NCBI GenBank assembly: GCA_005879405.1
Contig: VBKW01000194.1
Location: 1-35,394, forward strand
Length of the DNA: 35,394 nt
Source of the DNA: Deltaproteobacteria bacterium
GTDB lineage: Bacteria > Desulfobacterota > Binatia > UTPRO1
Direction: 5' to 3'
In this document: in pieces, positions 1,115-15,350 of the stretch
Numbering within the stretch: the first letter of the stretch is position 1
How the letters are laid out: each line of letters starts with the position of its first letter
Made by a program: the position numbers and the translations under genes
The notes under the pieces: model-generated
Seen by the model: the letters and a program-made list of their open reading frames with translations, nothing else
Database searches by the model: none
Told to the model about the DNA's origin: nothing

Positions 1115-1115
1115 T
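1098..1115. promoter_or_regulatory. Small inverted repeat in an AT-rich patch
   Basis: ATCAC-N8-GTGAT forms 5-bp arms around TATTATAC, flanked by GATCAAT and GATCAAA direct repeats. It sits at the 3' end of the HGSNAT-like gene and touches its stop codon. It could be an operator or -10 element for the secreted protein gene downstream on the minus strand, or chance in an AT-rich patch. Confidence 0.22.
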
Positions 1116-2077
1116 CAAATCGGCACGCGGATCCCGCGCCGTGCGAGTGCCAACGTCACGGCGGCGAGCGCGACGACGCATGCCGCGACGGCGGCGAGAC
1201 CACCGGCCTCCGGCAGGGCCGGCGGGGGACCGAAGACGTAGATGATGGGATAGTAGACGAGGATGTACTGCAGCACCCATGCGGTGAGCGCGCTCGCACC
1301 GAGGCGGACGAGCGAGTCGGGAAACCGCCAGCCCCGTACCTCCAATCGCGACAGCATGGCGATCAGCGACGCCGATGCCGCGATCGCGAGCAGCACGAAG
1401 CTGCTCGTGCCGATCACCTTGTTGAACGGCACCCCGGTGAGCCGCAGCGCGACGGCGAGCGTCAGCCCGCCGAGCGCGACGGTGACGGCGCGCCGCTCGT
1501 AGCCGAAGAGATCCCCTTTCGCGAGCGGCCGCCCGACGACGTACCCGATCAGCGTGATCGGCATGAACGGCAGGCAGTCGAGAAGCGAGCGGTGCACCTC
1601 GTTGTTGCCCGGACCGTAGTGGGTCGCGGTGATGACGGCGGCGATGGCGACGATCAGCGCGTCCGGCAGCTCGGAGAGCGCAACCGCAACGATCCCGCCC
1701 ATCCCGAGCGTCTGCAGCACACCCCAGCGGATCTCCACGCGCTGCGCGGCGACGGCGTCGAGCCCGACTCCCAGCGCGACGAGCAGCAGAAAGCGGCGCG
1801 CCGCGAGCCAGCGGGCGCGACGTCGCTCCGTCTGCCGTCCGCGGCGCTCGAGGAAGAGCACGAGCGAGAAGCCGATCAGGAACTGAAAGATCGGCGCCGG
1901 AAGATCGAGTGGGAGGAGCTCGTCGCCGAGATTGTGGCCGAGCCAGTACGGCCGCTCGGCGGCGAAGACGTTCACCAAATTGGCGACCAGCATCGCGACC
2001 ACCGCGAGGGCGCGTGCGGTGTCGAGGAACCGCAGGCGTCGCGCCGCCGAGGGGGAGCGGGTAGCGGCGTCACTCAC
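1115..2077 (-). CDS. HGSNAT/DUF1624-like multi-pass membrane acetyltransferase
   Basis: The ORF track starts this frame at 2590, but its first ~170 residues are an Arg-rich shadow of the upstream gene. The natural start is GTG at 2077, which overlaps the PIG-L stop as GTGA and gives 320 aa. The protein begins RRLRFLDTARALAVVAMLVANLV and has about ten hydrophobic segments. LGHNLGDELLPLDLPAPIFQFLIGFS resembles the catalytic region of heparan-alpha-glucosaminide N-acetyltransferase (H...W.G.T..DLVFP.F.F..G.S), so His48 lines up with the acetyl-carrying His of that family. By family it would move acetyl or acyl groups from cytoplasmic acyl-CoA to an amino sugar across the membrane; the substrate is unknown. 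It is translationally coupled to the deacetylase upstream. A YeiB/DUF418-type membrane protein is the alternative. Confidence 0.78.
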   Translation of the reverse strand: MSDAATRSPSAARRLRFLDTARALAVVAMLVANLVNVFAAERPYWLGHNLGDELLPLDLPAPIFQFLIGFSLVLFLERRGRQTERRRARWLAARRFLLLVALGVGLDAVAAQRVEIRWGVLQTLGMGGIVAVALSELPDALIVAIAAVITATHYGPGNNEVHRSLLDCLPFMPITLIGYVVGRPLAKGDLFGYERRAVTVALGGLTLAVALRLTGVPFNKVIGTSSFVLLAIAASASLIAMLSRLEVRGWRFPDSLVRLGASALTAWVLQYILVYYPIIYVFGPPPALPEAGGLAAVAACVVALAAVTLALARRGIRVPI

Positions 2078-3387
2078 CGCACGCGCGCATGCCTTTCCGC
2101 GTCCGCTGGCGTCGGCGTCGGAGCAGGCTGTCGAGGACTCTCGACGACGGCTGGCTGCGGCCCGGGCTCGGCGTGCCTCAGCTCGGGCCCACAGGGCGGC
2201 TCGCCGGGCTTCAAGCGCGCGAAGTCGGGGCGCTCGACGACGGCGAAGATCTCGTTCGGCCGGGCGAGCGCACGGAAGAGCCGGTCCATCATCGCCGCCT
2301 GCGTGCCGTGGCTCTCGAGCGCCGCCAACTTGGCGTCGATCTGGGCGGCGTCGAGCGGGAGCGAGTACCAGCGCGCCGGGGGAAAGGTCACCGGCGGAAG
2401 CGGCAGCGGCCCGGGGACTGACGGCGGCGGCGGCCACCAGCCGTCGTGGACGAGATACGTCAGCAAGCGGTCGGGGATTTTCGAGTCGCCGCCGGGCTCG
2501 GCCGCGAGCGACTTCAGCGCCGCCAAGAGAAAGGTGAACGTCGCGCAGTGGTCCGGATGCATATCGACGGGTATCGGCACCGCGATCCAATCGGGATCGG
2601 CGAGCGCCACCAGATGCGAGATCTGGTTGATCAGCTCGTGGCTCGTGTAGCCGGCGTGCGGATTGAACGCCTCGGGATACGGGGGACGGTCGTCGTGGGT
2701 GTACGGCGATTGGTACGCGGGGACGTGCGGCCCGCGCCGCCAGATCTCCTGCAAGCCGCCGTCGGGGAAGCCGAGGAACGTCACGGAGACCGGCAGGATG
2801 TGGTAGTGCTCGAGCGCGACCAGCGCCTCGGCGCGGCGGAGCTCGCCGAAGCCGCGGTAATCGACCGCCGTCGGCTGGCGGTGCCCGGTCGCGAGCGCCA
2901 CCGCCTCCGGGTAGCCGTCGCCGCTCGTCATGAAGACGACGTGCACGCGGCCGCCTTTCTCCAGCACCTGTTGCATGAGACCGCCGGCGGCGAGCGACTC
3001 GTCGTCGGGATGCGGCGCGACGACGAGGAGGCGGAGCTTCGGAGGCACCTCGAGCGTCGTGAGGTCGTGCTGGGAGGCGGCGCCTCGTCCCGGAGCCCCG
3101 GGAGGCACTGGCGCGCCAGGCGGCGAGCTCGTCGGCGCCGCGGCGAGCGGCGGCGCGGCAGCGAGCGGCGAAGCGGCGACCGCCGGTGACCTCACGGCCG
3201 CAGGCGACGTCGTCTGCGGCGCGCTACCGAGCCGCAGCGCTAGCGCGCCGGCCACGAGCGCGCCGAGCGCCACCGCCACGACCAAGCCCGGACCTGGACC
3301 CTTGCCTTTCCCCAGCAACCGCGTCACCCTCACCGCCGAGTTTCGAGCATATCCCCCTTTGATATCGGCATCGACCGGCGGCGTCAC
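2074..3387 (-). CDS. PIG-L/LmbE family zinc deacetylase, membrane-anchored
   Basis: PIG-L (LmbE) enzymes are zinc-dependent N-deacetylases acting on GlcNAc-containing glycolipids or thiol glycosides such as the MshB substrate. The hallmark HPDDE sits at residues 126-130 (LLVVAPHPDDESLAAGG), and MHPDHCATF is the later metal-binding His motif. A hydrophobic segment at residues 35-52 and a Pro/Ala-rich linker to about 105 precede the domain, so it is probably an N-terminally anchored protein with an extracytoplasmic catalytic domain. The ORF-track start is GTG 3387, which lacks a Shine-Dalgarno. GTG 3327 (VTRLLGKGKG...) gives a tidier signal-anchor and is as likely. The stop overlaps the start of the acetyltransferase by 4 nt. 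It is divergent from the molybdoenzyme gene. Family is certain; substrate is not. Confidence 0.9.
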   Translation of the reverse strand: MTPPVDADIKGGYARNSAVRVTRLLGKGKGPGPGLVVAVALGALVAGALALRLGSAPQTTSPAAVRSPAVAASPLAAAPPLAAAPTSSPPGAPVPPGAPGRGAASQHDLTTLEVPPKLRLLVVAPHPDDESLAAGGLMQQVLEKGGRVHVVFMTSGDGYPEAVALATGHRQPTAVDYRGFGELRRAEALVALEHYHILPVSVTFLGFPDGGLQEIWRRGPHVPAYQSPYTHDDRPPYPEAFNPHAGYTSHELINQISHLVALADPDWIAVPIPVDMHPDHCATFTFLLAALKSLAAEPGGDSKIPDRLLTYLVHDGWWPPPPSVPGPLPLPPVTFPPARWYSLPLDAAQIDAKLAALESHGTQAAMMDRLFRALARPNEIFAVVERPDFARLKPGEPPCGPELRHAEPGPQPAVVESPRQPAPTPTPADAERHARVR

Positions 3388-3434: not shown

Positions 3435-5663
3435 ATGACGCATTTCCGGACCTGTCCCCTGTGCGAAGCGACCTGTGGGCTCGCGATCACGACGCGCGGC
3501 GCCGAGATCACCGCCATCCGCGGTGACGCTGACGACGTCTTCAGCCACGGCTTCATCTGTCCGAAGGCGTACGCGCTGAAGGACCTCGACACGGACCCCG
3601 ATCGCCTCCGCACGCCGCTCGACCGCCGCAGCGGCCGCCTCGAGCCCGCCTCCTGGGACGACGCGTTTGCGGAGGTCGAGCGCGGGCTGATGGCGGTGAT
3701 CGATACACACGGACGCCAGGCCGTCGGCGCCTACGTCGGCAACCCGAACGCGCACAACCTCGCGCCGATGGTGTACATGCCCGTCTTCTTGCGCGCGCTC
3801 GGCACCCACAACGTCTTCTCCGCCAGCACCGTCGATCAGATGCCGAAACAGGTGTCCGCAGGGCTCATGTTCGGCACGGTCCTCAGCATCCCGATCCCCG
3901 ACGTCGACCGCACCGACTACCTGCTCATGCTCGGCGCGAACCCGCTCGCGTCGAACGGCAGCTTGATGACGGCGCCCGACATGAAAGGACGCCTACGCCG
4001 TTTGCGGGCGCGCGGCGGAAGGCTCGTCGTCGTCGACCCGCGCCGCAGCCGGACGGCGCAGGAGGCCGACGAGCACGTGTTCATTCGTCCTGGCACCGAC
4101 GCGCATCTCTTGTTCGCGATGGTGCACACGCTTTTCGAGGAGCGGCGGGTCGCGCCCGGGCAGCTTGCGGAGCATCTCGCCGGGCTCGAGGACGTCCGCG
4201 CGCTGGCGCGCGACTTCGCGCCCGAGCGCGTCGCCGACGCCTGCGGCGTCCCGGCCGACACCATTCGCCGCCTCGCACGCGAGCTCGCGGCGGCGCCGCG
4301 CGCCGCCGTCTACGGCCGCATCGGCACCTGCACGCAGGAATTCGGGACGCTCGCGAGCTGGCTCGTCGACGTGCTGAACGTGCTCACCGGCAACCTCGAC
4401 CGCGAAGGCGGCGCGATGTTCACGAAGGCCGCCGCCGGCTCGAAAACCGCGCACGGTCCGGGCGGGCGCGGCCGCGGCGTTCAGTTCGGACGCTGGAAGA
4501 GCCGCGTGCGCGAGCTGCCCGAGTTCTACGGCGAGCTCCCCGCCGTCTGCCTCGCCGAGGAGATCGAGACCCCGGGCGACGGCCGGATCCGCGCGCTCGT
4601 GACCATCGCGGGGAACCCGGTGCTCAGCACCCCGAACGCCGCGCGCCTCGACCGCGCGCTCGCGTCGCTGGAATTCATGGTGAGCGTCGACATCTATCTG
4701 AACGAGACGACGCGGCACGCCGACGTCGTCCTCCCCGCGCCGTCCACCTTGACGCGCGGCCACTACGATCTCGCGCTCTACAATCTCGCGATCCGCAACG
4801 TCGCCCACTACTCGCCGCCGCTCTTCCCACTCGCCGACGGCGAGATGGAGGAGTGGCGCATCTTGCTGCGTCTCGCCGCGATCGCGATGGGCCAAGGGGC
4901 GCACGCCGATACCGACGTCGTCGACGACTTCGTCGCGACGCAGGTCGTGCAGCGCGAGGTCGGCGCGAGCGGCTCCGCGATCGCCGGGCGCGACGTCGCC
5001 GAGATCATGGCCGCGCTCGCCCCGCGCCGCGGTCCCGAGCGCATCCTCGACCTGTTGCTGCGGAGCGGCCCCTACGGCGATCACTTCGGCGCCAACCCCG
5101 GCGGTTTGACGCTCGCGGTGCTCGAGGCGCACCCGCACGGCATCGACCTCGGGCCGCTCGTGCCGCGGATCCCCGAGGTGCTGCGGACGCCGTCGGGGAA
5201 GATCGAGCTCGCGCCGCCGGCGATCGTCGCCGACGTGCCGCGTCTGCGCGACGCGCTGGCGCGCGTGCGGAGCGAGATGGTCCTCGTCGGCCGCCGTCAC
5301 CTGCGCTCGAACAACTCGTGGATGCACAATCTCGACGTCCTCGTGAAGGGGAGGCCGACCTGCACGTTGCACCTGCATCCGGTGGACGGCGCGCGCCTCG
5401 GCCTCGCCGACGGCGAGACGGCGCGCGTCACGTCGCGCGTCGGCGCCGTCGACGCGCCGGTGGAGCTCACCGACGCGATCATGCCCGGCGTCGTGAGCCT
5501 GCCACATGGGTGGGGCCACGATCAGCCCGGCGTCGTGCTGCGCGTCGCGCGCGCGCACGCCGGCGTCAACAGCAACGTCCTCGCCGACGAGCTCGCGCTC
5601 GATCCGCTCTCCGGCAACGCCGTCCTGAACGGCATCCCGGTGACGGTCGCGCGCGCGGGTTGA
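3435..5663 (+). CDS. Molybdopterin oxidoreductase (DMSO reductase superfamily) with [4Fe-4S] motif
   Basis: This is a complete bis-MGD enzyme of 742 aa. The N-terminal iron-sulfur motif is C7-x2-C10-x3-C14-x27-C42 followed by Pro-Lys, as in formate dehydrogenase and nitrate reductase large subunits. The molybdopterin core includes MLGANPLASNG and VVVDPRRSRTAQEAD, and the C-terminal molydopterin dinucleotide-binding domain includes RRHLRSNNSWMHN and LPHGWGHD. Where Mo-ligating Cys or SeCys normally sits the sequence reads STVDQMPKQ, so Asp134 (or Ser/Thr next to it) may take that place; this alignment is by eye. GGAG lies 8 nt before the ATG. There is no electron-transfer or membrane subunit nearby and no twin-arginine signal, so it is probably cytoplasmic. 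UbiA follows after 31 nt. The substrate cannot be read from sequence. Confidence 0.92.
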   Translation: MTHFRTCPLCEATCGLAITTRGAEITAIRGDADDVFSHGFICPKAYALKDLDTDPDRLRTPLDRRSGRLEPASWDDAFAEVERGLMAVIDTHGRQAVGAYVGNPNAHNLAPMVYMPVFLRALGTHNVFSASTVDQMPKQVSAGLMFGTVLSIPIPDVDRTDYLLMLGANPLASNGSLMTAPDMKGRLRRLRARGGRLVVVDPRRSRTAQEADEHVFIRPGTDAHLLFAMVHTLFEERRVAPGQLAEHLAGLEDVRALARDFAPERVADACGVPADTIRRLARELAAAPRAAVYGRIGTCTQEFGTLASWLVDVLNVLTGNLDREGGAMFTKAAAGSKTAHGPGGRGRGVQFGRWKSRVRELPEFYGELPAVCLAEEIETPGDGRIRALVTIAGNPVLSTPNAARLDRALASLEFMVSVDIYLNETTRHADVVLPAPSTLTRGHYDLALYNLAIRNVAHYSPPLFPLADGEMEEWRILLRLAAIAMGQGAHADTDVVDDFVATQVVQREVGASGSAIAGRDVAEIMAALAPRRGPERILDLLLRSGPYGDHFGANPGGLTLAVLEAHPHGIDLGPLVPRIPEVLRTPSGKIELAPPAIVADVPRLRDALARVRSEMVLVGRRHLRSNNSWMHNLDVLVKGRPTCTLHLHPVDGARLGLADGETARVTSRVGAVDAPVELTDAIMPGVVSLPHGWGHDQPGVVLRVARAHAGVNSNVLADELALDPLSGNAVLNGIPVTVARAG

Positions 5664-5694
5664 CCGAGTTTCGACGACTCCGTAAACGGAACGC

Positions 5695-6747
5695 ATGCCT
5701 GACTCTGCACGCGTCGTCGCCGACGCGCCGCCGCTCGGCGACGCCGTCGACGCATCGAGCCTCCTCGACACCTGGCGGAAGATCATCGCGAGCGGCAACA
5801 TTCCCGCCGGCCGCCGCATCGACGCCGTATCGCGCTGGCTCCTCATCACGCGCGCGTGCGTGTTCTCGATGACGCTCACCTCCGGGCTGATCGGCGGTCT
5901 TCTCGCCGCGGCGTCGGCGCAGCAGCCGCGCTGGGGGCTCTTCGCGCTCGCGCTCCTCGGCCTCGTGGTGGCGCACGCCGCCAACAACATGATCAACGAC
6001 TACTTCGACACGACCGAAGGCGTCGACGTCGAAGGCTACACGCGCACGCTCTACGCGCCGCACCCGCTCTTTTCCGGCCTCATCAGCAAGAACGGGCTGC
6101 GCGCGGCGATCGCCGCCTGCAATCTCCTCGATGTCGCGATTCTCGCCGTGCTCGCGCGGGCGCGCGGCTGGCCGGTCGCGGCGTTCGCGCTCGCCGGGCT
6201 CTTCGTGAGCGTCTTCTACGTCGCGCCGCCGCTCAAGTTGAAGCATCACGGCCTCGGCGAGCCGGGCGTGTTCGTCGTCTGGGGGCCGCTCATGATCTGC
6301 GGCACGTACTACGTCACGGCGGGAACGCTTCCGGCATGGACGTGGCTGGCGTCGATTCCCTACGCGATCGTCGTGACGACGGTGCTGATCGGGAAGCACG
6401 TCGACAAATACGAGCAGGACCGCGCGCGCGGCATCCACACGCTCCCGGTGCTCCTCGGCCGCACCGCCTCGCTACGCCTCAATCAACTGCTGATGATCGG
6501 GTTCTACGTGATCATCGTGGCGCTGGTCGCGCGCGGCGTGCTCGGGTGGGGCGTGCTGCTCGTCGCGGCCGCACTGCCGCGGCTCGTCGAGGTGCTGCGC
6601 GCGTACTCGCAGCCGAAGCCGGCGGCGCCGCCGCCGGGGTATCGCATCTGGCCGCTCTGGTTCGTCGCGCTCGCGTTCCACCACAATCGCCTCGCCGGCG
6701 CGCTCTTCGTCGTCGGCCTCGCGGTGAACGCGCTGCTCGGCCTCTGA
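5695..6747 (+). CDS. UbiA-family prenyltransferase (MenA-like)
   Basis: This integral membrane enzyme would transfer a polyprenyl chain from a diphosphate donor to an aromatic or quinone-precursor acceptor. Both Mg-diphosphate motifs are present: NNMINDYFDTTEGVD (NDYFD at 101-105) and HVDKYEQD in the second half. About eight hydrophobic segments cover residues 50-350, with a polar N-terminal extension of about 45 residues. The 350 aa length is slightly above the family norm because of that extension. It starts 31 nt after the molybdopterin enzyme on the same strand and is likely co-transcribed. The pairing suggests a prenylated quinone or related cofactor linked to the redox enzyme, which is inference. 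Heme O synthase (CtaB) or chlorophyll synthase are less likely from the motif context. Confidence 0.88.
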   Translation: MPDSARVVADAPPLGDAVDASSLLDTWRKIIASGNIPAGRRIDAVSRWLLITRACVFSMTLTSGLIGGLLAAASAQQPRWGLFALALLGLVVAHAANNMINDYFDTTEGVDVEGYTRTLYAPHPLFSGLISKNGLRAAIAACNLLDVAILAVLARARGWPVAAFALAGLFVSVFYVAPPLKLKHHGLGEPGVFVVWGPLMICGTYYVTAGTLPAWTWLASIPYAIVVTTVLIGKHVDKYEQDRARGIHTLPVLLGRTASLRLNQLLMIGFYVIIVALVARGVLGWGVLLVAAALPRLVEVLRAYSQPKPAAPPPGYRIWPLWFVALAFHHNRLAGALFVVGLAVNALLGL

Positions 6748-6759
6748 TCTCGGCGACGC

Positions 6760-7266
6760 ATGCCGCGCGCGTCGCAGATCCCGGCACCTGGCAGACGCGC
6801 GCGCGCCGCCGAGACCGCGACACCCGGGCGCCGCGTGCGCGCGACTGAGAGCCCGGCGCCCGGCAGGCGCGTCCGTGGCTCGCGAAGCGGGCGTCCAATC
6901 ATGGCGCTCCTCGACCTTCTCGGCCGCCGCTGGGCGCTGCGGATCCTGTGGGAGCTACGCGACGCGACGCTGGTCTTTCGCGCGCTCCGCGCCCGCTGCG
7001 ATGCGATGTCGCCGAGCGTGCTGAATCAGCGGCTCGGAGAGCTGCGAGACGCCGGCATCGTCGCGCTCGTGCCCGACGCCGGCTACACGCTGAGTCGCGA
7101 AGGAATCGTGCTGCTGCACGCACTCGCGCCCCTTCAAGGTTGGGCGACGCGCTGGGCGGACGGCGCGCCGCGCCCCGATGCGACGCGCGTACCCGCCGCT
7201 GCCGTGACCAGCGCCTCGTCGCGCCGCCGCGCGCGCCCGCTGCGCCGCACGCGTGCCACCCCATGA
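6760..7266 (+). CDS. HxlR/MarR-like winged-helix regulator with repetitive basic N-terminus
   Basis: The core from residue 48 (MALLDLLGRRWALRILWEL) through VLNQRLGELRDAGIVALV and YTLSREGIVLLHALAPLQGWATRW is the HxlR winged-helix fold, though the Cys often found near the N-terminus of the family is absent. Before it lie three 12-residue repeats of the type APGRRVRATES, and after it an Arg-rich tail (SSRRRARPLRRTRATP). No clear Shine-Dalgarno precedes ATG 6760. ATG 6901 is an alternative start that would drop the repeats but would also clip the first helix. The stop overlaps the TrmJ start as ATGA, so the two genes are translationally coupled. Targets are unknown; autoregulation is typical of the family. 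Confidence 0.75.
   Translation: MPRASQIPAPGRRARAAETATPGRRVRATESPAPGRRVRGSRSGRPIMALLDLLGRRWALRILWELRDATLVFRALRARCDAMSPSVLNQRLGELRDAGIVALVPDAGYTLSREGIVLLHALAPLQGWATRWADGAPRPDATRVPAAAVTSASSRRRARPLRRTRATP
6784..6891 (+). repeat. Three 36-bp degenerate tandem repeats coding a 12-aa basic repeat
   Basis: The 36-base unit encodes APGRRARAAETA, TPGRRVRATESP and APGRRVRGSRSG in succession. The copies are in frame with the HxlR domain and have diverged at DNA level more than at protein level. This suggests old duplication or selection on the basic peptide, perhaps as a nonspecific DNA-binding arm. Confidence 0.65.
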
Positions 7267-8147
7267 CGGCGGCTCGCACCCGACCGCTGAGCCTCGCCCG
7301 CATCCGCGTCGTGCTCGTCCGTCCGCAGCATCCGGGAAACATCGGCGCGGCCGCACGGGCGATGAAGAACATGGGCCTCGCCGACCTCGTGCTCGTCGCC
7401 GCGACGCCGCCCGACGTGCGCGCCGCCGCGCCCATGGCGGTGCACGCCCGCGACGTGCTCGCCGCGCACCGGCGCGTCGCGACGCTCGCCGACGCGATCC
7501 ACGACTGCGGCCTCGTCGTCGGGACGAGCGGCCGCGTCGGCGGCGACTTCCAGGGCGAGTCGCCGCGGGCGCTGGCGCCGGCGATGGTCGCCGCGAGCGC
7601 CGCGAACGATGTCGCACTCGTCTTCGGTCCCGAGGATCACGGTCTTTCGAACGACGAGCTGATCCACTGTCATCGCGTGCTCACGATTCCCGCGACGGGC
7701 GTCTACCCGTCGCTGAACTTGGCGCACGCGGTGCTCATTTGCGGGTACGAGCTCCGTCTCGCCGCCGCCGCGGCAGAGGACGTCGCCACGCGCGCCGCGC
7801 GGATAGCCGCGACAGACGACGCGGTGACGGACGCGCCGGAGGAAGCGTCGTCCGCCGCGGCGCGAGTCCTCGCACCGGCGCGTCTCGGCGAGCAGATGTA
7901 CGCGGCGCTCGAGGACGCGCTCTACGCGATCGGCTTCCTGCATCGGGACAACGGGGTGCACATGATGCGCGCGTTTCGCCGCCTTCTCGGCCGCGCCGCG
8001 CTCGACGCCTACGAGACGCGCGTTCTTTTCGCGCTCGCGCGTCAGATCGCCTGGATCGCCAAGGTCGCCGGGATCGTCCGGCCCCGTGCACCGCACGATC
8101 GTCGACGCGCGGCGGCGTTGACCACGGAGACGCACCAGGGATCATGA
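7263..8147 (+). CDS. trmJ: TrmJ-like tRNA (cytidine/uridine-2'-O-)-methyltransferase, SPOUT family
   Basis: The ORF track begins at 6948, but the first 105 residues are a shadow of the HxlR gene. ATG 7263 overlaps that gene's TGA and gives 294 aa. SPOUT/TrmH signature motifs are all present: motif 1 RPQHPGNIGAAARAMKNMGL near the N-terminus, motif 2 LVFGPEDHGLSNDEL and motif 3 PSLNLAHAVLICGYEL, which form the trefoil-knot SAM site. The C-terminal extension (LYAIGFLHRDNGVHMMRAFRRLLGRA) is typical of TrmJ, which methylates position 32 of the tRNA anticodon loop, and separates it from TrmH and TrmL. Coupling to an HxlR regulator is unusual for a housekeeping tRNA-modifying enzyme. Confidence 0.88.
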   Translation: MTAARTRPLSLARIRVVLVRPQHPGNIGAAARAMKNMGLADLVLVAATPPDVRAAAPMAVHARDVLAAHRRVATLADAIHDCGLVVGTSGRVGGDFQGESPRALAPAMVAASAANDVALVFGPEDHGLSNDELIHCHRVLTIPATGVYPSLNLAHAVLICGYELRLAAAAAEDVATRAARIAATDDAVTDAPEEASSAAARVLAPARLGEQMYAALEDALYAIGFLHRDNGVHMMRAFRRLLGRAALDAYETRVLFALARQIAWIAKVAGIVRPRAPHDRRRAAALTTETHQGS

Positions 8148-14255: not shown

Positions 14256-15350
14256 ATGACAATGCGAGGATCGGTACTAGTGGCGGCGGTAATGGCGGTA
14301 GGGTTGGCCGCTTGCGGCGACAGCCGCGGGCACCACGGCGGAGGATCGGTGCCGGCGACGAGAATCACGGTCGTCGACCTCGGCACCGTCGCGCTCACGG
14401 CGGCGAACCAGGGGCAGACCTTCGACGTCGTGGTGAACCACGCGACGTCGTTCACGCTCGTCGCCGACGGCGGCGATGCGACCGACATCGACATCGAGAC
14501 CCTGCGGGCGCCGAGCGGAGCGCTCGTGGTCACATCCGCTCGCGGCGATGCGAATCCGCTCACGGGCACCGTCTCGCCGCAAGACGTCGGCGGCTCGGTC
14601 GCGACCGCTATCGTGCCGAGCCGGATCGCGACGCCGATCGAGAGCGGGACCTACACGTTCAGCATCGGCAGCTTCAACGCCGCCGGCACCCGCGTCGCGG
14701 CGACGGTCCACCTGACGGCCATCATCGACCGCCGCCCGTTCCCGACGACCGGCACGCTCAGGGTGCGGCTCTTCTTCGTCGGCGCGAAGGGACTCGACGC
14801 GGCGAGCGCCCTCGACTCGCCGGCGTTTCAGACGGTCTTCCACGAGCTCACGCGCACGTTCAACGCGATCGGCATCGACGTCGAGATCGCCGACCGCACC
14901 GACATCGGCGGCGACGCCGGGTTGCGGCTCGCCGTGCTCGATGTGCTCGACAGCACCACCGACCGCGTCGTCCCTGACCACAACTTGAATCGCCAATCGG
15001 ACGAGATGGACGAGCTCTTCGGCCTCGCGCCGCAGGGCGTGGGTGACACGATCAACGTGTTCTTCGTGGACGAGTTCGTGGCTCAGTCGGGCACCGACGC
15101 GGTGAGTGGCGGCCAGCCCGGCCCGTCGATCGTCTCCGGCACCGCGCACTCCGGTATCGCGGTCACGACGCGCGGCGGTCTCGCCGATCAGAGCGTGACA
15201 GACCTCGAAGCGATCGGCCAAGCGCTCGCGCGCGAGGTGGCCCGCTACCTCGGCGCGCAAGGCACAGTCGATCCCGAGGCGTTCACGACGGACCAGATGC
15301 TCGTGATCCGCGTGAACCCGGCCGTACAGGATCCGGACGCGGCAACGTAA
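14256..15350 (+). CDS. Lipoprotein resembling a secreted zinc metalloprotease with all zinc ligands lost
   Basis: ATG 14256 follows GAGGAGG at optimal spacing; the track start at 14193 is upstream of it. The signal MTMRGSVLVAAVMAVGLAAC has a clean LAAC lipobox (Cys20). The first half (residues 35-155) looks like a beta-sandwich of the pre-peptidase kind (FDVVVNHATSFTLVADGG, ESGTYTFSIGSFNAAG). The second half follows secreted metalloprotease-like lipoproteins: DTINVFFVDEF, a Gly/Ser-rich loop with TAHSGIAV, then ALAREVARYLGAQG where an active relative would read AHEIGHFLGLFH. Arg326 and Arg330 replace the two His, and the third ligand is Gly336. It is therefore probably catalytically dead, acting as a binding or scaffold protein at the cell surface. 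The assignment is by eye. Confidence 0.68.
   Translation: MTMRGSVLVAAVMAVGLAACGDSRGHHGGGSVPATRITVVDLGTVALTAANQGQTFDVVVNHATSFTLVADGGDATDIDIETLRAPSGALVVTSARGDANPLTGTVSPQDVGGSVATAIVPSRIATPIESGTYTFSIGSFNAAGTRVAATVHLTAIIDRRPFPTTGTLRVRLFFVGAKGLDAASALDSPAFQTVFHELTRTFNAIGIDVEIADRTDIGGDAGLRLAVLDVLDSTTDRVVPDHNLNRQSDEMDELFGLAPQGVGDTINVFFVDEFVAQSGTDAVSGGQPGPSIVSGTAHSGIAVTTRGGLADQSVTDLEAIGQALAREVARYLGAQGTVDPEAFTTDQMLVIRVNPAVQDPDAAT

Follow-up and report, generated by a model that had tools for sequence, protein, structure and literature searches.

Why do the genes for a deacetylase of the PIG-L/LmbE family and for a transmembrane acetyltransferase (TmAT) related to human HGSNAT lie so close together that the GTG start codon of the second shares bases with the TGA stop codon of the first, and could their products act on one substrate? 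This question is raised by two minus-strand genes in a 35,394-base stretch of DNA (hereafter the window), which is one whole contig (G000:C146) of a 4.49 Mb draft genome. Among named relatives, the closest found for this genome is a MAG from groundwater that bears the label Deltaproteobacteria (JACQEO010000067.1). Each of the two proteins comes from a known family, while their pairing appears undescribed: no paper on PIG-L proteins paired with HGSNAT, DUF1624, DUF5009 or NagX was found in the literature library searched, in line with the preliminary description of this DNA, which knew of no described system of this exact pair. The side-by-side occurrence of such genes in distant bacteria, as documented below, suggests a two-step editing of envelope sugars.

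The two overlapping genes and their products

The positions of the two genes, of their 4-nt overlap and of the motifs discussed in this study are listed in Table 1. The overlap, to which the preliminary description had drawn attention, is kept in the related genome G001 of the same genus. Between two species of this genus, dN/dS was ~0.19 for the PIG-L gene and ~0.27 for the TmAT gene, from which both genes look to be under purifying selection.

Table 1. Features of the PIG-L/TmAT locus, with positions in the window.
Feature	Position	Strand	Evidence and remarks
PIG-L/LmbE-family metal-dependent de-N-acetylase, N-terminal anchor or signal (predicted)	2074..3387	-	437 aa from GTG 3387; PF02585
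Hydrophobic N-terminal helix, PIG-L residues 34-50, basic residues before it	3238..3288	-	predicted helix, hydropathy, sequence
HPDDE motif, PIG-L residues 126-130	2998..3012	-	alignment with MshB HPDDE; ligands per PMC4101496
HPDH motif, PIG-L residues 277-280	2548..2559	-	alignment with MshB GHPDH
GTGA stop/start overlap of the PIG-L and TmAT genes, 4 nt	2074..2077	-	sequence; same in G001
Compact HGSNAT-type transmembrane acetyltransferase (TmAT superfamily)	1115..2077	-	320 aa; PF07786, AlphaFold2, Foldseek
DxxR motif, D19-R22, TM helix 1 of TmAT	2012..2023	-	invariant in 7 orthologues; superfamily motif (PMC12423673)
N33 of TmAT, aligned with HGSNAT Asn258	1979..1981	-	invariant (7 orthologues); HMMER alignment
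H48 of TmAT, aligned with HGSNAT catalytic His (H269/H297 by numbering)	1934..1936	-	invariant; HMMER alignment
PFNK motif, TmAT residues 217-220	1418..1429	-	alignments: PVNK in HGSNAT, PINK in NagX-like proteins

The first protein matched PF02585 in a Pfam profile search with 92.5 bits (cut-off, 28.2; E = 4e-26). Alignment with MshB located the HXD1D2 plus distal His metal site at H126, D128, D129 and H280, and H277 is equivalent to His144 of MshB. Residues D275, H277, D279 and H280 are invariant across 15 PIG-L homologues. In the LmbE-type motif, the ligands are His-Asp-His and an Asp serves as the general base (PMC4101496); by homology, H126 and D129 of the window protein would be metal ligands, D128 the general base and H280 the third ligand. 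The AlphaFold2 model had a pLDDT of 78, with values >90 across much of the domain; only the N-terminal region, a linker and short segments close to the C-terminus scored low. Foldseek searches with this model returned LnmX, MshB, diacetylchitobiose deacetylase and glycopeptide deacetylases (E about 1e-9 to 1e-10). The window protein has its fold and its HPDD plus HPDH metal site in common with LnmX, MshB, diacetylchitobiose deacetylase and the deacetylases of the teicoplanin/A40926 type (reviewed in PMC4101496). Its scores stayed below the NCBIfam equivalog cut-offs for MshB, Mca, BshB1 and BshB2 (26-33 bits against 182-277), and its subfamily differs from the MshB-type enzymes in being longer and, by prediction, exported.

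Upstream of the catalytic domain, the predicted helix, with a maximum hydropathy of 2.69 (17-residue window), would serve as an export signal or membrane anchor, and the basic residues before it predict an N-in, C-out orientation. The exact start of the protein is uncertain, as a codon model favours a later start; the hydrophobic helix is largely retained in both versions. The earlier reading of this gene as encoding a PIG-L-type deacetylase with an HPDDE motif and an N-terminal anchor was thus borne out by the profile match, the motif and the helix.

The same account had described the second product as a multi-pass, HGSNAT-like protein that keeps the catalytic His, and our results agree with it. 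A Pfam profile search of 1115-2077 gave the HGSNAT family (PF07786, HGSNAT_cat; 34.8 bits against a cut-off of 22, E = 1.7e-8) and not an unrelated one, and the His of the string LGHNLGDELLPLDLPAP in this protein was aligned by HMMER with the catalytic His of human HGSNAT. A profile built from seven orthologues retrieved HGSNAT from the PDB at 1.3e-7; in this alignment, H48 falls on the catalytic His and N33 on the Asn (Asn258) that hydrogen-bonds acetyl-CoA in HGSNAT (PMC11357348). Signatures of the TmAT superfamily are invariant in these orthologues, i.e., D19 and R22 of DxxR in TMH1, F64 and G69 of FxxxxG in TMH2, and R95 in TMH3; Trp267 stands at the place of the TMH9 Tyr, in a segment of the alignment (the second domain) that is not significant. 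The AlphaFold2 model (pLDDT 84.8, pTM 0.87) had human HGSNAT (8vli) as its first Foldseek match, at E = 2.7e-8 and a TM-score of 0.75 on the query, followed by GWT1 at E = 8e-5. HGSNAT is therefore the best fold match as well as the sole sequence relative of solved structure that was found, and its DxxR motif, TM1 Asn and catalytic His are kept. The window protein differs from HGSNAT in its identity of only ~17% over the model, in its compact size and in having no lumenal domain; alignment revealed that its subfamily is without the luminal stretch, including DPEG, that is seen in canonical members. Because this segment is missing, the acceptor of the compact subfamily may differ from the canonical one. 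Acetyl transfer to an amino-sugar acceptor is the activity predicted for the protein. A further PF07786 gene (55 bits; G000:C43, 20168-20806) and a further PIG-L gene (94 bits; G000:C248, 3655-4071) are present in the window genome and are not adjacent to each other.

That GWT1 was the second fold match, and that PIG-L and PIG-W share one eukaryotic pathway (GPI synthesis), raises the possibility of a GPI-like route, in which PIG-L would de-N-acetylate a GlcNAc-lipid that a PIG-W/GWT1-like enzyme then acylates. We consider such a role very improbable: it is disfavoured because the Asp of DxxR and the catalytic His are missing in GWT1 (PMC12423673) and present in the window TmAT, the fold match to HGSNAT is much better than that to GWT1, and the eukaryotic PIG-L acts on the cytoplasmic face, whereas the window PIG-L appears exported. 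These two residues and the best fold match, HGSNAT, also led us to reject a GWT1/PIG-W inositol acyltransferase identity for the TmAT.

Distribution of the pair within the class

A close TmAT homologue was found in 7 of 148 genomes of the class, and a more distant one in G505 (E = 6.6e-8). The PIG-L subfamily is present in all seven class genomes with the compact TmAT, compared to 21 of 98 overall (Fisher 8e-6 by genome and 0.003 by genus, neither of which corrects for kinship). In G001, the two genes are adjacent with identities of 73 and 78% for the pair, and the PIG-L orthologue adjoining the same partner is 75-78% identical; in G037, which belongs to another family of the class, they are adjacent with a 1-nt gap. 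The neighbourhood is thus conserved in relatives, a point on which the preliminary description had made its reading depend. Another four genomes (G017, G024, G044, and G051) have the two genes at separate places, with the TmAT gene after an alpha/beta hydrolase gene in the first three of them and PIG-L adjoining an acyl-CoA dehydrogenase gene in the scanned loci of this set. Genus g3 (G003-G005), from the family of the window genome, has a PIG-L gene that retains its large, divergently transcribed neighbour as well as the gene for a serine-hydrolase-like protein and has no TmAT beside it, which indicates that the TmAT gene was either inserted beside, or lost from, an older PIG-L locus. A PAS/HisKA_3 sensor kinase gene lies by PIG-L in G003 and G005 (L070, 6204-7298; L071, 7303-8358), at the place that TmAT takes in the window genus. 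Close relatives often hold PIG-L without TmAT, and the link between the two is recurrent, not obligatory; the many genomes with PIG-L only imply that this enzyme can work without a TmAT partner.

Recurrence of the pair in a distant family

When ~40 PF07786 loci from a phylum-wide sample were examined for PIG-L neighbours, one further pair was identified in G382, a member of the distant family f101. Among 26 f101 genomes searched, most contained the PIG-L subfamily, some of them in several copies, and 17 contained PF07786; in eight genomes from three genera, a TmAT gene lies beside a PIG-L gene of the same subfamily. The TmAT gene comes first in G382, G543, G545, G546, G537, and G538, the PIG-L gene comes first in G529, and the two are head to head in G539. 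Random placement would yield 0.056 adjacencies compared to the eight observed, and with one genome per genus three were observed compared to 0.025 expected. Left out of these counts was locus L120, where a PIG-L gene only distantly related to this subfamily lies ~2 kb from TmAT on the opposite strand. The PIG-L subfamily reaches up to five copies per genome in f101 (e.g., G539 and G545), in varied neighbourhoods that include ABC transporter and DUF4147/MOFRL genes.

The f101 partners are canonical NagX-like HGSNAT proteins that are far in the tree from the compact clade of the window. Paired PIG-Ls are spread over several separate clades and their partners come from two deeply separated TmAT clades, in trees that do not fix the number of gains versus losses of the pairing. 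That the partner clades and the gene orders differ suggests that proximity was selected for repeatedly. These observations bear on the explanation that the neighbours are functionally unrelated, with PIG-L in an ancient solo role and TmAT landing beside it by chance or hitchhiking. Such a coincidence would account for the g3 loci, where PIG-L has the same flanks and no TmAT, for the four class genomes with the genes apart and for the plasmid-borne PIG-L relatives in Thermus and Deinococcus, beside which no TmAT gene was found. It is hard to reconcile with independent adjacency in distant lineages, involving two TmAT clades and three arrangements, with an adjacency far above chance even at one genome per genus, and with a 4-nt overlap conserved within the genus; we therefore regard it as improbable. 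The PIG-L gene on the Deinococcus aetherius plasmid adjoins a gene annotated as nitrate reductase. Plasmids NC_014818.1 and NZ_CP155750.1 carry HGSNAT-like genes that overlap, or directly adjoin, genes for alpha-N-acetylglucosaminidase, which is reminiscent of the lysosomal HGSNAT/NAGLU pair.

Flanking genes

The immediate neighbours of the pair in the window (3435-6747, plus strand) encode a divergently transcribed molybdopterin oxidoreductase, which is formate dehydrogenase-like and did not reach the equivalog cut-offs, and, after it, a UbiA-family prenyltransferase similar to MenA. Pfam searches assigned the divergent gene to the molybdopterin oxidoreductases in both the window and G001; that of g3 presumably has the same identity, as judged from its position and from its length, which equals that of the window gene. 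Across the paired loci the flanks vary and include genes for molybdopterin oxidoreductase, UbiA, DUF3141/PHB-depolymerase-like hydrolases, PAS kinases and a PDDEXK nuclease. Neither a glycan operon nor a glycosyltransferase gene was found around the pair in the window and the paired loci examined. Because the flanks differ and no glycan gene adjoins the pair, the context indicates no substrate.

A gene for a SpoU-type RNA methylase (7140-8147, plus strand) lies ~4 kb from the window PIG-L and directly adjoins PIG-L homologues in G092 and G030 (L076 and L077), hinting at an old shared PIG-L/SpoU methylase locus. In addition, the window contains a 333-residue ORF (14349-15350, plus strand) with a good coding signal and no Pfam match.

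Predicted topology and proposed mechanism

Every paired PIG-L appears from its sequence to carry an N-terminal signal or anchor; for G543, G537, and G538 the hydrophobic start is located in the DNA upstream of the called ORF, which was the version used in the tree, and in G382 the signal ends with an ARA-A type site. HGSNAT uses cytoplasmic acetyl-CoA to acetylate an amine on the other side of the membrane (PMC11357348), and NagX has been proposed to make periplasmic GlcNAc from glucosamine with cytoplasmic acetyl-CoA (PMC9007349). Taken together, the signals or anchors of the paired PIG-Ls and the geometry of HGSNAT and NagX place both active sites probably on the periplasmic face of the membrane.

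In the mechanism that we propose, PIG-L would be exported, or anchored in the membrane, so that its metal site lies in the periplasm; there it would hydrolyse an N-acyl group, most likely N-acetyl, off a glucosamine-type residue. The multi-pass TmAT would take cytoplasmic acetyl-CoA and pass its acetyl group, via N33 and H48, to an acceptor at the periplasmic face. Jointly, they would most likely edit one shared envelope or secreted amino-sugar substrate by N-acyl removal and (re)acetylation, and in the detail that we prefer, one acyl group would be swapped for acetyl on the same nitrogen. Restoring the very group that was taken off would be a futile cycle, unless removal and addition differ in acyl group or in position.

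The preliminary description had suggested one pathway for the two proteins, which would perhaps make an N-acyl-glucosamine lipid or swap acyl groups on surface glycans. The first part of this suggestion, one pathway, is favoured by the recurrence of the adjacency in unrelated lineages and by the periplasmic location that the two proteins probably share; nothing points to either substrate, and the lack of glycan-synthesis genes in the flanks, the g3 synteny with PIG-L only and the four class genomes with the genes apart count against a joint role. On balance, the chances appear even that the pair works as a small module of the cell envelope, in which one enzyme de-N-acylates and the other acetylates the same amino-sugar substrate. 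More tentatively, we propose a so far undescribed two-protein system for N-acyl editing, in which an exported PIG-L would strip a periplasmic amino sugar and an HGSNAT-type protein would re-acetylate it with cytoplasmic acetyl-CoA, and which may have been assembled independently in several lineages from two TmAT clades.

The main rival to this proposal is that the two enzymes act at different positions of one polymer, PIG-L freeing an amine and TmAT O-acetylating (or O-acylating) the polymer elsewhere, for which IcaB and IcaC on PNAG and the PgdA-type and OatA-type enzymes on peptidoglycan are parallels. Such a division of labour would sidestep the futile cycle, and in the compact subfamily, without the luminal DPEG, the acceptor need not be a glucosamine amine; furthermore, many bacterial enzymes of the TmAT superfamily are O-acyltransferases (PMC12423673). 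We nevertheless find it rather unlikely, as the nearest family by both sequence and fold is HGSNAT, an N-acetyltransferase whose catalytic His is retained, no polymer synthase was found nearby and the known systems use CE4 deacetylases, to which PIG-L is unrelated.

A NagX-like scavenging role, in which PIG-L would strip exogenous N-acylated glucosamines and TmAT would make GlcNAc for import and catabolism, seems decidedly improbable. It would agree with the resemblance of the canonical f101 partners to NagX, the proposed maker of periplasmic GlcNAc from glucosamine (PMC9007349), and with the alpha-N-acetylglucosaminidase genes that adjoin some plasmid-borne relatives. However, searches of six genomes carrying the pair (drafts, 88-100% complete) found nagA above the curated cut-off in none of them, and likewise no NAGLU, the partner glycosidase of HGSNAT, which disfavours a NagX-type catabolic role. 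Moreover, the window TmAT scored 24.7 bits against the cut-off of 480 for the NagX equivalog (NF046061), and no sugar transporter gene is adjacent to the pair in the window. PF01182, with the glucosamine-isomerase fold, was found in four of the six carriers and is uninformative because this family also includes 6-phosphogluconolactonase.

Comparison with known systems

NagX belongs to the same catalytic family as the window TmAT, and it differs in sitting in chitin/GlcNAc operons and in working together with NagA and transporters instead of an exported PIG-L. IcaB and IcaC of PNAG synthesis likewise combine an extracytoplasmic deacetylase with a TmAT-superfamily protein, but IcaB is a CE4 deacetylase, IcaC is an AT3 protein, and the two are set with a polysaccharide synthase. 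PNAG modification of the IcaB/IcaC type was rejected for the window locus, where the deacetylase is of PF02585 and no polysaccharide synthase is among the immediate neighbours. The logic proposed here is also that of teicoplanin/A40926 tailoring, in which a PIG-L deacetylase acts and an N-acyltransferase then re-acylates the same glucosamine. This tailoring differs in that its acyltransferase is not known to be an HGSNAT-type membrane protein and in that its substrate is an antibiotic. DnpA of P. aeruginosa is a PIG-L enzyme encoded in an LPS cluster, with no TmAT partner mentioned in those passages of PMC6048251 on which this comparison draws.

Implications

Bacterial HGSNAT-like proteins are widespread, and their acceptors are mostly unknown; the sole role that we found, that of NagX, is a proposal based on fitness data. 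A recurrent neighbour that would expose free amines at the same membrane face provides a substrate hypothesis for this HGSNAT-like class as well as for a PIG-L subfamily predicted to be exported and not cytoplasmic. If the proposal is true, the pair would be a bacterial parallel to lysosomal processing, in which an amine is first exposed and acetyl is then transferred to it across the membrane.
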